From Fimbriimonadaceae bacterium (GTDB lineage Bacteria > Armatimonadota > Fimbriimonadia > Fimbriimonadales > Fimbriimonadaceae): 64,000 nt of DNA. A program made the position numbers and the translations under genes. The DNA lies in NCBI GenBank assembly GCA_023957775.1, contig JAMLGR010000002.1, forward strand, positions 1-64,000. The letters are read 5' to 3'. Positions 26,784 through 46,814 of this stretch are shown one piece after another; positions within the stretch are counted from its first letter, which is position 1, and the number at the start of each line of letters is the position of its first letter. The notes under the pieces were generated by a model. That model was given only the letters and a program-made list of their open reading frames with translations. It made no database searches and had not been told where the DNA came from.

Positions 26784-27455
26784 TTCTTTCAGGACGAGAC
26801 CCTTGGTGGCGTGGGTCACGGACCCCCCGGGGGTCCAAAGGTCCACCTCGGTCGCGGATTGGGGAACCGCCTGGGCGAGGAGCACGCGCCAACCCGGGTG
26901 CGACCACTTCTCCCGAATGGCCCGCACGTCCGCGTCCAGACCGAACCCCGCATACGGCTTTTCCGAGAGCCAGCCCGCGGGCAGCGGCTCCCCGTCCCGC
27001 TTGGCGAGCTTCCTGGCGATCGACGGGAACTTCCGCTCCTTCACCGTGTCGAAAAGCGCCGCCGATTGCCCGGCGTTCACTTCCGGCATGGCCCCTCCGA
27101 TCAGCGCGCCGACGTCCAACCCGGTCCACATCGACGCGAGAACGTGCGCGACGCCGAGCACCACGATCGCCCCGACGACGCGCATGACTTTGGATCGCAC
27201 CATCGAAACGATCATCGCGAACAGGACTCCGCCCACGGCTGGGACCAGATAGGGGACCGGCGTGCGAGGGTAGAGCGGCTGCAGGAGCCACAAGACCCCG
27301 AAGCCGCACGCCGCGTAGAACGCGAAGAAGCCCCAGCGCACGATCTTCCGGCTCAGCGTCCAGACCAGATAGAGGGCGACCACCGCGATCACGAGCACGA
27401 CGGCCAACACGGCCGTGGGATCCATGCCCTTCATCCACTCCATCGGGAGACTCAT
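26757..27455 (-). CDS. Membrane protein of unknown function coupled to the uvrA C-terminal half
   Basis: A 232-residue protein with about four hydrophobic segments in the first 115 residues ([72 protein letters not shown]), followed by a soluble tail of about 110 residues. No family is recognised. Its ATG overlaps the stop of the upstream uvrA half by four bases (ATGA), so the two are translationally coupled. The last residues (ERPTTNDQR) are read from a heptanucleotide array, which also supplies the stop codon, so the C-terminus looks repeat-derived. Confidence 0.75.
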
Positions 27456-28519
27456 CGAACTTTGGCGGGCGACTTTGCGCGTTTCTCGGCAACCTTCAGG
27501 TCACCCGGCGGCCGGGACTTTTCCAGCATGGCCTTGAGGTACCGCCCCGTGTGCGAGTCCGGGTTGGAGGCGACCTGCTCGGGTGTGCCAAAGGCCACGA
27601 CCCGCCCTCCTCCGGTGCCGCCCTCGGGCCCCAGATCGATCAGCCAGTCCGCCGTCTTGATCACGTCGAGATTGTGTTCGATCACCAGCACCGTGTTGCC
27701 CTGATCCACGAGTTGGTGCAGCACGCCCAGCAACCGCCGCACGTCCTCGAAGTGGAGCCCGGTCGTCGGTTCGTCGAGGATGTAGATCGTAGACCCCGTC
27801 GAGCGCTTCGACAGCTCGGCGGCAAGCTTGATGCGTTGAGCCTCGCCACCGGAGAGCGTGGTAGCGGGCTGCCCCATCCGGATATAGCCCAGGCCGACCT
27901 CCTCCAACGTCGCGAGCTTGCGGTAGATCTTGGGAATGGGCTGAAAGAACGCGCACGCCTCCTCGAGGGTCATCTGCAGGACGTCTGCGATCGACTTGCC
28001 CTTGTACTTCACCTCGAGGGTCTCGCGGTTGTAGCGCTTGCCCTTGCACACCTCGCAAGGCACGTAAACGTCCGGCAAGAAGTGCATCTCGATCTTGATG
28101 ATCCCGTCGCCCTTGCAAGCCTCGCAGCGCCCACCCTTCACGTTGAACGAGAACCGCCCGGGCTTGTAGCCGCGAATCTGGGCGTCCGGCGTGCGCGCGA
28201 ACAGGTCGCGGATCAAGTCGAAGGTGCCCGTGTAGGTCGCTGGGTTCGAGCGCGGCGTCCGACCGATGGGCGACTGGTCGATGTCGATCACCTTGTCGAG
28301 CGCCTCGTGGCCCTCGAGGGAGTCGTGTTCGCTCCACACGCCCCGCGTGCCGTACACCTCGTACATCAGGCGTGGGAAGAGCGTGTCCTGCACCAGCGTG
28401 GATTTGCCGCTTCCGGAAACGCCGGTCACCCCGATGAACAACCCGAGGGGAAACGCCACATCGACGTTTTGCAGGTTGTTTCCCCGCGCCCCCCGCAACA
28501 CAAGCCAACCCTCGGACAT
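27452..28519 (-). CDS. uvrA: UvrA, C-terminal ATPase half (split gene)
   Basis: A 355-residue protein equal to the second half of UvrA, the damage-recognition subunit of nucleotide excision repair. It starts exactly where the second ABC module starts in full-length UvrA ([20 protein letters not shown]). Intact parts: Walker [10 protein letters not shown], zinc-binding CEACKGDG...[10 protein letters not shown], the ABC signature [11 protein letters not shown], Walker [12 protein letters not shown] and the H-loop [11 protein letters not shown]. The start is ATG 28519, or a TTG at 28537. It lies 39 bases downstream of the SARP-type regulator gene and overlaps the next membrane gene by four bases. 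The N-terminal half is a separate gene at 31834-33696, same strand. Confidence 0.93.
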
Positions 28520-28558
28520 GTGGACACCAGTATACAATGTTGGCTGGCGCTCCGACGA

Positions 28559-29917
28559 TCAGGCCAGATTGAGAAGGCGACGCTTGCGGTCTTGGAGGCG
28601 TGGTGTCGGCAACAGACCGGCCCGCCTTCGAATCCCCTCCGCCGAACGCCACAGCGAAAGCGCCTGCTTCCCGTTGCCTACCTTGGCCCAGGCTTCAGCC
28701 TCTGCCTCCTTCGCATAAAGGGATCGCAGCGGGTACCCCTGTCGACGTGCCTCCGCACCTACCGAAGCCAGGCGCTGGAGCGCCTCTTCAGGACGACGCC
28801 GAGCCATCAATTCCTCACCCTCGGCGAGTCCCAACATCAAGGTCGCCCATCGGTCCACCCGGGGATTGTAAAGGGACTTGGCAAACTCGGCGCCCTCCTG
28901 GACACGCTCCAACTCCCCCGCTTCGGCCGCCAACAGCGCGTAATTGCACCAGAATCCGAGCTGCGCATGGCGCTCAAGGGGATCTACACGCCCGCGAACC
29001 TCCGCCAGGATCGCAAGCGCATCCGCAAATCGAGCGCGATGCCAAAGCCGTTCCGCGGCATAGCTCTGGCAAATCACGTTGGCGGCCGCGCCTCTACGAG
29101 TCTTGGAGAGCCACTCCTGCGCGACGGTGTCCGCCTCGTCGATCAAGCCTGACTCCAACAGGGCGAACCCGAGCATCGCTTCGGTGCGCAACGAGGCCAT
29201 CCGATCGCCCCGCCACAAAGCGAGGCGGTTGGCTTTGCGGAACGCGCCCTGCGCCGCCTGGAGGGCCAAATCGCGGTAGAGGAGTTCGCCCTGAAACTCC
29301 AGATGCTCCACAGCGCAAACATCGGTTCGCCTCCGCGGCCGGGTCCTGCGCATCAGTTCGAGCATTCGATCCGGATCGACGATCTGGGCCATTTCGCGAC
29401 CTCCTATGAGAAGGCATCGCGCCGCGTCCACGTCGACGCGGCTGACCTCCTCGACCGCCATGACGTAGGCTTCTGCCGGGGATGGGTCGGTGGCAGGCTC
29501 GCCCGGGGCAAGGATGGCCACCTCGTCTCGAATCGCATCGAGCCACGGATGGGCGATGCCTGGGGCGATCAGGGCGCCGCTCGCTTCTCGACCGTCGGGG
29601 AGCCGCAAATCCAACCCCACGGCCCCCGGCCGGAGTCGGAGCCGGTGCCCGTCCGATTCGATCGCCCCTGGCCCGAGCCACCGCCGAAGCCGGAAGATCG
29701 TCTGTCTCAGCGCGTTGAGCGCTCCAGCTCCGGGAGAGTCGGGATAGAGGCGTGCGGCGCACTCCTCCCTTCCCGTCCAAGCCTGCCCACGCAGGGCAAG
29801 CACTGCGAGCAGAGTGGCGGTGCATTGCGTGGGCGGGGAAGCGAGATCCTCGTTTCCCCTGCGGACCTCGTACCGACCACCTAGACGAATCTGCCACCTG
29901 CACTGCACGTGGCTCAT
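28559..29917 (-). CDS. SARP-type winged-helix regulator with TPR-like C-terminal region
   Basis: A 452-residue regulator. Residues 1-110 form an OmpR/SARP-like winged helix: LLAVLALRGQAWTGREECAARLYPDSPG, then the recognition region ALNALRQTIFRLRRWLG and a wing (IESDGHRLRLRP). The rest is a helical-repeat array rich in Ala, Leu and Arg with TPR-like spacing (AMLGFALLESGLIDEADTVA, GFWCNYALLAAEAGELERVQ). Proteins of this plan usually activate a nearby gene. It is divergent from the PEP-CTERM gene; the gap holds a tandem heptamer operator (29999-30038) of the type SARPs bind. It lies between the two uvrA halves and is 39 bases upstream of the C-terminal half. Confidence 0.78.
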   Translation of the reverse strand: MSHVQCRWQIRLGGRYEVRRGNEDLASPPTQCTATLLAVLALRGQAWTGREECAARLYPDSPGAGALNALRQTIFRLRRWLGPGAIESDGHRLRLRPGAVGLDLRLPDGREASGALIAPGIAHPWLDAIRDEVAILAPGEPATDPSPAEAYVMAVEEVSRVDVDAARCLLIGGREMAQIVDPDRMLELMRRTRPRRRTDVCAVEHLEFQGELLYRDLALQAAQGAFRKANRLALWRGDRMASLRTEAMLGFALLESGLIDEADTVAQEWLSKTRRGAAANVICQSYAAERLWHRARFADALAILAEVRGRVDPLERHAQLGFWCNYALLAAEAGELERVQEGAEFAKSLYNPRVDRWATLMLGLAEGEELMARRRPEEALQRLASVGAEARRQGYPLRSLYAKEAEAEAWAKVGNGKQALSLWRSAEGIRRRAGLLPTPRLQDRKRRLLNLA

Positions 29918-29998
29918 ATCTGATTATGGTCCCTCCCGAGCCTCGCCGACGCCCCTTCCACGAGGTGAAAGCCCGCATTGTTGCCAGCTCGTTCGCCA

Positions 29999-30053
29999 CC
30001 AACGGCTCCTTCTCCGCTGCGTAACGGACCTGTAACGGCCAGACCCGTACCAT
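29999..30053 (+). promoter_or_regulatory. Putative SARP operator and -10 of the PEP-CTERM gene
   Basis: GTAACGG occurs at 30021-30027 and again at 30032-30038, exactly 11 bases apart. CCAACGG lies in the same register at 29999-30005, 22 bases before the first. Nine bases after the last copy is TACCAT (30048-30053), a possible -10. Known SARP activators bind heptamer direct repeats with 11-bp periodicity just upstream of the -10. The predicted transcript would have a leader of about 80 bases before the GTG at 30139. Confidence 0.5.
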
Positions 30054-30138
30054 GGAGTTGTCGGTTCTGCGTGAGTCGTCGGGCGGACACCCATCGTATG
30101 CGGTCGACCGGCATGCAACCGAAAGGGAGGAAACTGCT

Positions 30139-30831
30139 GTGATAACAACAACGAGACACTGCCGGCCCTTCGCGCGGTCGCTCGTGGTCGTCGCCGCGAT
30201 CGTCGCGGTCCACCCGGCATTCGGTGACATCGCTTACAACAATCTGGGCACGGACGACGCGTTCAACCACAACGACGGTTGGAACGTAGGCTACTACACG
30301 GGAGGTCACTGGAGCCACGGGTTCCTGTTCACATCGGCCACCACGGGCATGTTGGATCGGATCCTGATTGGGCTCTCCCGATCCTCCGGAACCAACGCCA
30401 TGCACGTCGATCTCTATGCGGCGAGGGACGCTGGGGGTGGAGATCTCCGCCTGGGCACCCAGCTCAAGGGATGGGACGTGGTGGACCTACCCCAGTTTGG
30501 CGATCCCAACATGACGCCGACGTTGCTGACCAACAACGACTCCGGTGTCACCCTGTCGGCTGGTGGCGCTTACTACCTGGTCGCGGAGCCCGGTGCGCCC
30601 GACTTCTTCGGCTTCTTCAACACCAACAGCACGGGCGCTGCGGGCAAATACGTCTATTGGGACCAGCCCCTGAACGGCGGGCAGGGAGACTGGAACTATC
30701 AGTATGGAGGCACCACCGGGGCCTTTCGAGTTGAAACGGCGGTACCCGAGCCGGCGACGATTCTGGTCCTCGCCCTCGGAGGCGCGGGAGTCTGCCGCAG
30801 GAGACGATCGAAAGGGCTCTGCGCCCACTAG
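30139..30831 (+). CDS. PEP-CTERM sorting-domain exported protein
   Basis: A 230-residue secreted protein. I start at GTG 30139 because AGGGAGGA lies about eight bases upstream and because this gives a clean signal peptide (SLVVVAAIVAVHPAFG, cleaved before DIAYNN). The C-terminus is a complete PEP-CTERM tag: VPEPAT, a hydrophobic span (ILVLALGGAGV) and an Arg cluster (CRRRRSK). The mature part is beta-rich with many Gly, Asn, Tyr and Trp (YYTGGHWSHGFLFTSATTGML). This resembles the choice-of-anchor style PEP-CTERM proteins. It is the likely substrate class of the exosortase at 45.2 kb and may be exported to the envelope or matrix. Confidence 0.88.
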   Translation: MITTTRHCRPFARSLVVVAAIVAVHPAFGDIAYNNLGTDDAFNHNDGWNVGYYTGGHWSHGFLFTSATTGMLDRILIGLSRSSGTNAMHVDLYAARDAGGGDLRLGTQLKGWDVVDLPQFGDPNMTPTLLTNNDSGVTLSAGGAYYLVAEPGAPDFFGFFNTNSTGAAGKYVYWDQPLNGGQGDWNYQYGGTTGAFRVETAVPEPATILVLALGGAGVCRRRRSKGLCAH

Positions 30832-30872
30832 CAGGTTGCTGAAGAACGACCTCGAACAGGTCGCAGACGGTT

Positions 30873-30903
30873 GCCCGGGGTCGAGCGCAGCAAGACCCCG
30901 GGC
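30873..30903 (+). terminator. Perfect 10-bp hairpin after the PEP-CTERM gene
   Basis: GCCCGGGGTC and GACCCCGGGC are exact inverted repeats around an 11-base loop, 42 bases after the PEP-CTERM stop codon. The position fits a transcript end. There is no following T run, so it may instead be a Rho-aided or stabilising hairpin. Confidence 0.4.
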
Positions 30904-31007
30904 TTGAATGGCGGTCGAGGGCACCCGAAGCGGACCCATCGCGGCCGCATGGAGTTGGTTCCCCCCGCCCCATCGCCACCGCAGGACCGTGAGCGTGAAT
31001 CCCTCCC

Positions 31008-31033
31008 TGCGCCCTTTGCGTTCCTTGCGTGAC
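31008..31033. repeat. Dispersed TTTGCG-type repeat copy
   Basis: The stretch TGCGCCCTTTGCGTTCCTTG and the following CGTGAC match, reverse-complemented, the repeat at 41201-41233 (CACGCAAAGAACGCAAAGG). The rest of the gap between the PEP-CTERM and msrA genes (30832-31102) has no other recognised feature apart from the hairpin. Confidence 0.6.
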
Positions 31034-31102
31034 AACCCCTCCGCGACAGTTCATGAAACTCCCGGCGCGGTTCGCGTGTTAGAGAGGTGTACGAGGTCCA
31101 CC

Positions 31103-31774
31103 ATGTTCATGAAACTCCTGATCGCCGCCGCCATGACCGCCGGGACCGCGTGTGTTCTACAATCCACCCCAATGCAAGCTCCAAACGAACCGACCCCTCC
31201 CGGCCAATCCACCCTCGTGGTCGCAGGTGGGTGTTTTTGGTGCCTCGAGACGCAGTTCGAGCGGTTGAAGGGCGTGTCCAAGGTCGAGAGCGGCTACGCC
31301 GGCGGCTCCATGGCGAACCCCACGTACGAGCAGGTGTGCACCGGCACCACCGGCCACGCCGAGGCCGTCAAGATCTTCTTCGACCCCAAGGTGATCAGCG
31401 CCGACGACCTCCTGCACGTCTTCTTCACGATCCACGACCCGACCACGTTGAACAGCCAGGGCCCGGACCACGGCACGCAGTACCGGTCCGCGATCTTCTA
31501 CTCGAACGACGTCGAGAAGGCCCGGGCTGAGAAGATCAAGGCCGAAATCGCGAACGAGAAGATCTGGCCCAACCCGATCGTGACGACGATCGAGCCGCTG
31601 AAGAACTACACGCGCGCCGAGGAGTACCACCAGGACTATTACAAGAAGTTCGAGGAGGGAACCACCACGGTCAAAGCGGGCATGAACGCGGGCTACTGCA
31701 CCGCGATCATCGAGCCCAAGGTGACCAAGTTCCGCCAGAAGTACGCCCACCTGCTGAAGGGCGGAACCCGCTAG
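31103..31774 (+). CDS. msrA: Peptide-methionine (S)-S-oxide reductase MsrA, exported
   Basis: A 223-residue repair enzyme that reduces S-methionine sulfoxide in proteins. The active-site motif is VVAGGCFWCLETQFERLKGV, with catalytic Cys at residue 44. Supporting segments are SGYAGGSMANPTYEQVCTGTTGHAEAV, FFTIHDPTTLNSQGPDHGTQYRSAIF and YHQDYYKKF. The chosen ATG, preceded by ACGAGG, adds an N-terminal hydrophobic leader (MFMKLLIAAAMTAGTAC) that looks like a signal peptide or weak lipobox, so the enzyme probably acts outside the cytoplasm. A late Cys (AGYC) could be the resolving residue. It lies between the two uvrA halves, convergent with the N-terminal half. Confidence 0.93.
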   Translation: MFMKLLIAAAMTAGTACVLQSTPMQAPNEPTPPGQSTLVVAGGCFWCLETQFERLKGVSKVESGYAGGSMANPTYEQVCTGTTGHAEAVKIFFDPKVISADDLLHVFFTIHDPTTLNSQGPDHGTQYRSAIFYSNDVEKARAEKIKAEIANEKIWPNPIVTTIEPLKNYTRAEEYHQDYYKKFEEGTTTVKAGMNAGYCTAIIEPKVTKFRQKYAHLLKGGTR

Positions 31775-31833
31775 GCGGTCTCGGCGGCCCGTCGCTGCGC
31801 GATGAAGTCGGGCCCGCATGAGAGCTTCTCAGC

Positions 31834-33696
<1,863 letters not shown>

Positions 33697-45216: not shown

Positions 45217-46149
45217 TTGGCGATCAGCCCTCACGCCCTTGGGAGACCCCAAGGCGAAACCGCATGGACGCGGACCATCAGGACACTCTTTCAGCGCGGG
45301 GCCCTTCCTCTCTGGGCAGTGCTCGCGGCGTTCGGCTTCGCATTCTGGCCGACCTTCGGTTACTGGTGGTCGGTGTGGACGGCCGAGCAGTCGCCCTTCG
45401 GGTTCGGCTACTTCGTACCGCCCACGGTCGCGTTTCTGATCTGGGCCCGCCGGAAGAAGATCGCTGACGAGCCCAAGCGGCCCGGCTCTGCATGGATCCT
45501 CCTTCCGATCTTGTTGGCGGTCGTCCTCCAGTGTCTGGCCCTGATCGCGCGGATCAACGTGCTGCAGTCGGCTTCGTTCCTCGTTCTCGCGATGACCGTT
45601 CCCTATCTCGTCTGGGGGGGAAAGGTGTACCGGCACATCTGGGGGGCGCTCGCCTATTTCGCGACGATGCTTCCCTGGCCCGAGCAGATTCACGGCCGCT
45701 TGCTGCTGCCGTCCCAAGAGCTGAGCACCGCGCTCTCCACGCGCCTCCTGGGTTGGACCGGCGTGCCCACGCTCGTCGAAGGCACCACCGTGAACACCCC
45801 GCACTACGGATTCGAGGTCGCGGCGGCATGCTCTGGGCTCACCATCCTCTTCCCGGTGATCTCCATCGTCATCCTCACGGCGATGATGTTGCGCGCTCCA
45901 TGGTGGAAGCTGGGGGCGCTGCTCATTCTCGCGTTCCCGCTCTCCGTCTTCGCCAACGCGGTCCGGATCTGGGCCATCGCGATGATCGGCGAATTCAAGG
46001 GCGCCGAACTCGCCAACACGCTTCACGACCCGAGCGGCTGGATGGCCGTGATCTTCGCGACGTTTGTGCTCATGGGTCTGACGGCGCTGCTCCGGTGCAC
46101 CGAGTACAAGCCCGAGTACATGCCGACCTTTGAGGAGGAGACCCGATGA
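45217..46149 (+). CDS. Exosortase
   Basis: A 310-residue multi-pass membrane protease/transpeptidase that processes PEP-CTERM proteins. Starts at TTG 45217 with AGGAGA eight bases upstream. The conserved catalytic triad is visible: Cys205 in VAAACSGLTIL, Arg250 in FANAVRIWAIAMIG and His270 in LHDPSGW. About eight hydrophobic segments are present, with the family's early FGFGYFVPPTVAFLIW. Its stop overlaps the start of the EpsI-like gene by four bases (ATGA). Position between ugd and EpsI marks a polysaccharide-linked exosortase locus. The substrate class is represented by the PEP-CTERM protein at 30.1 kb. Confidence 0.93.
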   Translation: MAISPHALGRPQGETAWTRTIRTLFQRGALPLWAVLAAFGFAFWPTFGYWWSVWTAEQSPFGFGYFVPPTVAFLIWARRKKIADEPKRPGSAWILLPILLAVVLQCLALIARINVLQSASFLVLAMTVPYLVWGGKVYRHIWGALAYFATMLPWPEQIHGRLLLPSQELSTALSTRLLGWTGVPTLVEGTTVNTPHYGFEVAAACSGLTILFPVISIVILTAMMLRAPWWKLGALLILAFPLSVFANAVRIWAIAMIGEFKGAELANTLHDPSGWMAVIFATFVLMGLTALLRCTEYKPEYMPTFEEETR

Positions 46150-46814
46150 GGCTGTTCGCTTCCCTTCCCCTTCGCACCCTGCTGGCGTGCCTCGTGCTGG
46201 CCCCCGCCGGGGTCGTGGCTCTCCGCACGACGCTCGGCGACTCGCATCCGCCCCGCATGCGGGTGGACACGCTCCCCGAAGTGGTGGGAGAGTGGGTCGG
46301 GGTCGATGCGCCGCTCACCGATCGCGAGCTGAGCATCTTGCAGTCGCCGGTCGCCAGCCAGCGCATGTACACCGCCCCGAACGGCGACACGGTGCAGGTG
46401 TTGCTCGTGCAGGTGGACAACACGCAAAACGCGCACGACCCACGGCTGTGCATGGATGGCAGCGGCTACACCGAGACCTCGACGTTCGAGGAAGCCGCCC
46501 CCTGGTCTTGGTCCGGCTCCCGCAACAGGGTCTCGCACTCGGTGTTCTCGCGCGACGGCAGAGATCGAGAGATGGACTACTGGCTCGCGACGCCCAACGG
46601 GAACGTGCCGAACATGAGCGCGGGATTGAAGCTGGAGGGCCTAAAGCGCGCGCTGCGCGGCGAGTCCACGCAGGGCATCGCGGTCCGGCTGCTCACCCAC
46701 CCCAACGCCTACGACCCATCGGTGATGACGTCACCGGCAAGGGCCCGAGAACTGTGGGCACAGATCGACCGCCAAGTGGGATTCGAGCGGTTGGTGAGGG
46801 GTTCAGAGCACTAG
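46146..46814 (+). CDS. Exosortase-associated EpsI-family protein
   Basis: A 222-residue membrane-anchored protein, signal anchor at 5-27 (ASLPLRTLLACLVLAPAGVV). It has the EpsI-family segments LPEVVGEWVG, VQVLLVQVDNTQNAHDPRLC (compare the H-x-P-x-x-C segment of EpsI), and MDGSGYTE. EpsI proteins are regularly paired with exosortase, sometimes fused to it; their biochemical role is not established. Its ATG overlaps the exosortase stop by four bases. Confidence 0.85.
   Translation: MRLFASLPLRTLLACLVLAPAGVVALRTTLGDSHPPRMRVDTLPEVVGEWVGVDAPLTDRELSILQSPVASQRMYTAPNGDTVQVLLVQVDNTQNAHDPRLCMDGSGYTETSTFEEAAPWSWSGSRNRVSHSVFSRDGRDREMDYWLATPNGNVPNMSAGLKLEGLKRALRGESTQGIAVRLLTHPNAYDPSVMTSPARARELWAQIDRQVGFERLVRGSEH

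Follow-up and report, generated by a model that had tools for sequence, protein, structure and literature searches.

What switches on a PEP-CTERM gene that stands back to back with a SARP-like regulator gene in a Fimbriimonadaceae genome? Haft et al. (2006) noted that other PEP-CTERM regulators and DNA motifs, including some outside the Proteobacteria, were still to be discovered (PMC1569441). The window analysed here is a stretch of 64,000 nucleotides, in which the two genes are separated by the intergenic region 29918-30138. From comparisons of this sequence with its relatives, we consider it likely that the region is a promoter of the SARP-activated style, at which pairs of the predicted SARP-like activator would sit side by side over the -35 region. 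The Armatimonadota operator would then be a concrete candidate for PEP-CTERM gene control, and the conserved shared promoter suggests how sorted surface proteins may get switched on in this little-studied phylum. If true, the SARP promoter architecture extends beyond Actinobacteria and antibiotic clusters; in the literature searched, we came across no paper that connects PEP-CTERM genes with a SARP operator.

The right-hand gene (30139-30831, + strand), the probable target of the operator, had been called a PEP-CTERM gene in the preliminary description, and its product indeed scores above the cut-offs of both PF07589 (28.6 bits) and TIGR02595. The protein has the C-terminal PEP motif, membrane helix and basic end of an exosortase substrate, and the genome (3.5 Mb in 27 contigs) encodes two exosortases together with 69 PEP-CTERM matches, 66 of them above cut-off. 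Context is provided within the window by a gene for an exosortase, the PEP-CTERM sorting enzyme (45217-46149, + strand; TIGR02602, 120.5 bits against a cut-off of 105.55), and a gene for an EpsI-type exosortase-associated protein (46146-46814, + strand; TIGR02914, 49 bits against 42.8). The GTG at 30139 is the most likely translation start of the PEP-CTERM gene; it lies eight bases behind GGGAGG (30125-30130, + strand), a probable ribosome-binding site. An in-frame ATG at 30052, which overlaps the predicted -10 hexamer, is the less likely start.

Two copies of the heptamer GTAACGG lie on the + strand at 30021-30027 and 30032-30038, the second 11 bp after the first, and a -10-like hexamer, TACCAT, follows at 30048-30053 (+ strand), nine bases past the second copy. 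Both had been reported in the preliminary description and are present as claimed. Streptomyces SARPs bind heptamer direct repeats with 11-bp periodicity about 8 bp before the -10; the spacing of nine in the window is near this value, not exactly equal to it. A third copy, CCAACGG, had been proposed 22 bp ahead and in register. It is present (29999-30005, + strand), but a role in the operator is improbable: the other 17 aligned sites have no counterpart, and the sequence itself is without the core-initial T found elsewhere. It was thus rejected as a conserved element, and it probably lies outside the functional site. For two exact GTAACGG copies at this period, the expectation is 8e-5 occurrences in the window, and the exact site is unique in this genome, where the next best has two mismatches. 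At 12 start positions in the window, some 7-mer or other is repeated at a distance of 11, so that a sighting of the operator in a single window is weak on its own. It is conservation beside orthologous regulators that makes the putative operator compelling.

Of 101 relatives, 28 gave matches to the regulator, about a dozen of them full-length, and a profile search of 291 genomes from the phylum recovered it in 14 at E <= 1e-30. A scan with the single protein gave one named match, CP054189.1, a MAG labelled Chthonomonadaceae bacterium H1_ARM1. Conservation was assessed in 16 non-redundant loci of relatives with a homologous divergent regulator, with the upstream regions read away from the regulator. 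Pairs of T[AC]ACG in the same orientation occur beside the regulator with a period of 11 in 11 of the 16 loci, as in a SARP-type direct-repeat operator, and with a period of 12 in two more, and no further period exceeds two loci. All point toward the divergent gene and none the opposite way, and 500 dinucleotide shuffles gave a mean of 0.02 such pairs and a maximum of 1. It should be kept in mind with these counts that the motif was partly derived from the very loci counted, that the loci are homologous and that the genomes are drafts. Two further loci carry the pair with one mismatch, which brings the total to 15 of 16; the exception is relative G013, whose own regulator gene is without such a pair.

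The preliminary description had asked for an alignment of orthologous intergenic regions and had taken loss of the repeats in relatives with the gene pair intact as evidence against its reading. The repeats proved instead to be the conserved feature of otherwise diverged DNA: spacer letters vary among loci while the repeats and the -10 stay, and the regulators themselves are only 24-42% identical to that of the window. Examples include GTAACGGCGCAGTAACGG in relative G017, GTCACGCTCTTGTCACG in C16 of the window's own genome, GTCACGCTTTGGTCACG in relative G002, GTAACGGTATTGTAACGG in relative G048 and GTCACGGTATGGTCACG in G070, a member of a different family of the same order. In 13 of 18 sites a TAnnnT hexamer, corresponding to TACCAT, starts 9-11 bases past the second TMACG; the shuffled mean gives an expectation of 0.96 sites.

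The regulator gene (28559-29917, - strand) encodes 452 amino acids. Its AlphaFold2 model (pLDDT 90) has an N-terminal winged helix (residues about 1-103) followed by helical hairpins, with TPR-like repeats at about 147-452. The window's regulator alone has no significant Pfam or NCBIfam family; among 15 members of the regulator family, Pfam found BTAD (PF03704) in none and Trans_reg_C weakly in four (best E 0.0028). The closest match of a winged-helix profile in the PDB is AfsR (E 2.8e-4). In Foldseek searches the whole model retrieved TPR proteins, Rap and MalT domain III, and the matches also included AfsR chains; for residues 1-254, ranks 1-6 went to AfsR and then EmbR chains (266-308 columns), both of them known SARP structures. 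The E-values are good and the TM-scores low (about 0.32 to AfsR), perhaps due to a differing domain arrangement. The model, the AfsR profile match and the weak Trans_reg_C matches all point to the OmpR/PhoB-type winged helix that SARPs carry at the N terminus. The neighbour had been described as a SARP-type winged-helix protein, and the winged helix stands; a TPR-like domain is present and, since Pfam finds no BTAD, SARP-like is the most fitting label for the protein. Of the residues that contact DNA in the structure of AfsR, R92 and T88 make base contacts, and R87, S91, R94 and K95 grip the backbone (PMC10936776). AfsR R87, T88 and R92 align with R71, Q72 and R76 of the window's regulator, all three invariant in the family, and such an invariant reading helix is in keeping with a single operator core throughout.

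Sites resembling the putative operator, sought genome-wide by pattern and family searches, also occur away from the window. The pattern TMACGN6TMACG has 11 sites in the window's genome, five of which directly precede PEP-CTERM genes (the window's own, C16:46406, C16:48519, C16:49399 and C16:83717), compared with about 0.03 expected (P about 4e-11). With the window's site and the two motif-defining regulator sites set aside, two of eight precede PEP-CTERM genes (P about 2e-4). Repeat pairs before other PEP-CTERM genes, which the preliminary description had suggested looking for, were therefore found. Those at C16:48519 and C16:83717 are not divergent from a regulator, and the latter is ~33 kb from the nearest one. 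The full pattern GTMACGN5GTMACGN11TANNNT has 10 occurrences in 7 of 85 family genomes; all seven are among the 13 that bear the regulator, and four of the ten sites are away from it. Among non-adjacent sites with a G before the second repeat in regulator-positive relatives, one in 45 precedes a PEP-CTERM gene (L211 in G013), and several precede signal-peptide-like proteins (L207 and L208 in G013, L187 in G044). None of the 33 control sites without that G in these relatives and none of the 20 in regulator-negative genomes precede a PEP-CTERM gene; one control region, L247, was left out for its wrong orientation. Counted genome-wide in relatives, the short pattern shows no excess over a reversed-pattern control, and being at background it cannot define regulons alone.

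The divergent neighbour of the regulator is a PEP-CTERM gene in 9 of 16 loci; the others include a dockerin-like secreted protein, a TolB-like one and some genes unlike surface proteins. PEP-CTERM genes are thus the main partner of the divergent regulator, not the sole one. At the sites L187 and L040 in G044, the genes that follow encode secreted proteins with a common dockerin-like C-terminal tail rather than PEP-CTERM; the C-terminal end of the L187 protein resembles that of a protein encoded divergently from another G044 regulator. At the locus L110 (C16:44500-54000) of the window's own genome, two regulator paralogues are clustered with five PEP-CTERM genes, and three minus-strand genes among the latter have a repeat-pair promoter each.

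In line with the SARP-style activation of an exosortase substrate suggested in the preliminary description, which the -10 spacing, the winged helix and the further sites all fit, we propose that two copies of the regulator would bind side by side on the GTAACGG repeats, one DNA turn apart at the -35 position, and recruit RNA polymerase to TACCAT. Transcription of the PEP-CTERM gene would then start at around 30060, downstream of this hexamer, and the exosortase encoded in the genome could act on its product. A few further PEP-CTERM genes whose promoters match may be under the control of this regulator as well, or of its paralogues. Because just 11-49 bp separate the operator from the start codon of the regulator in most relatives (13 of 15 measured loci; 104 bp in the window and 101 bp in the other), bound regulator may also damp its own gene. 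Binding, activation, autoregulation and sensing by the TPR-like domain are all steps that we infer. A consensus sigma-70 scan of 28400-31900 found no -35/-10 pair, which is expected for an activator-dependent promoter and weighs little as evidence.

The close approach of the repeats to the regulator start could also mean that they are an autoregulatory operator only, through which the regulator, hindering its own transcription when bound, represses its own gene while the PEP-CTERM gene is a bystander. We think this improbable, since the repeats always face away from the regulator at a fixed distance from a -10 on the divergent side, and the same arrangement, at C16:48519 and C16:83717, precedes PEP-CTERM genes that have no divergent regulator. 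A slightly better case, still an unlikely one, can be made that the repeats form the box of a different OmpR/PhoB-type regulator, such as a PhoP-like response regulator, the SARP-like gene being incidental. In Streptomyces, the PhoP, GlnR and AfsR boxes all share an 11-nt direct-repeat layout, and they can overlap. GTTCACC is the core of the 11-nt direct repeat units in Streptomyces PHO boxes, and there is competition between AfsR and PhoP where their sites overlap (PMC6988585). However, the repeats described here adjoin the SARP-like gene in 15 of 16 loci whatever the divergent gene (two with one mismatch), the full pattern is confined to regulator-bearing genomes, and none of the 11 sites in the window's genome resembles a pho or pst promoter.

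Least probable of all is that the repeat arose by chance or was retained by descent without a function. The loci are homologous and the window holds other 7-mers repeated at the same distance, as this explanation would have it, but the low identity of the regulators to that of the window and the divergence of intergenic DNA and spacers around retained repeats and -10 hexamers argue against it, as does the recurrence of the same elements at other PEP-CTERM genes.

SARP-style activation, the reading we prefer, is closest to that of AfsR at the afs box of Streptomyces coelicolor, a large SARP whose operator covers the -35 region with two direct repeats of 11 bp (PMC10936776). The winged-helix profile also matches AfsR better than any other PDB entry, and the equivalents of its recognition-helix R87 and R92 are invariant here. 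The distance to the -10 is comparable, and would presumably be equal if the -10 of afsS sits at the usual -12 to -7. Unlike AfsR, the regulator has no NOD ATPase and no BTAD that Pfam detects, and a TPR-like domain follows the winged helix; the core is GT[AC]ACG, the Thr88 position is an invariant Gln, the phylum is different and the target is a surface protein. The operators of PimR and the SARP-LAL regulators are likewise built of heptamers with 4-bp spacers (an 11-bp period), two of which are required for binding, and a 10-bp variant operator is known there that recalls our second subfamily (PMC5930380). Those operators differ in having three copies of a CGGCAAG core, an antibiotic cluster as the setting and a regulator with a different C-terminal half.

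Dedicated cis-sites and regulators for PEP-CTERM genes have been described for Proteobacteria, namely the PEP-CTERM box with PrsK/PrsR (PMC1569441; pepA, PMC9850573). That system depends on sigma-54 and an NtrC-type activator, whereas the prediction here is a one-component protein of SARP-like type and a -10 that is sigma-70-like. A sigma-54 box (-24/-12) found no support at this locus: the window has 10 weak matches versus 22.6 expected, and the nearest one upstream (29892, two mismatches) is at chance level. Excerpts from a study of Geobacter sulfurreducens describe GSU1771 as a SARP-family regulator outside Actinobacteria, with altered mRNA of PEP-motif exosortase substrates and epsH in the mutant by RNA-seq (PMC10599522). 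GSU1771 differs in having a receiver domain, and these excerpts mention neither direct PEP-CTERM control nor operator repeats; its effect on PEP-motif genes is an independent hint.

A distant subfamily of the regulator, found in C13 of the window's genome and in G045, G029 and G001, is also divergent from PEP-CTERM genes (L109, L271, L272, L274 and L299). In all five loci there are pairs with a TTCACG core, or close variants, at a period of 10, and the residue at the R76 position is changed. Two of the pairs are oriented toward the regulator, and pairs in both directions occur at a third locus. The combination of changed R76 position and TTCACG core, in these few loci, is suggestive of a recognition code. 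More tentatively, these regulators could form a family of surface-protein switches, in which each SARP-TPR regulator controls the PEP-CTERM or secreted-protein gene at its back, along with a few copies located elsewhere, via a repeat code of its own (period 11 with GTMACG, or period 10 with TTCACG in the other subfamily); the TPR-like domain would sense a signal, either a peptide or one at the surface. If true, this would be a form of exosortase-substrate regulation unrelated to the sigma-54 PrsK/PrsR route.

A last observation concerns the surroundings of the gene pair. Just 3' of the PEP-CTERM gene is a gene for an MsrA-type methionine sulfoxide reductase (30908-31774, + strand), with a probable signal peptide and a likely start near 31103. 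On either side, uvrA is split in two on the - strand, at 27452-28537 and 31834-33696; between them the two genes cover UvrA residues about 1-631 and about 632-960. The 3.3 kb between the halves comprise the regulator, the PEP-CTERM gene and the MsrA gene, as if a module had been inserted into uvrA.
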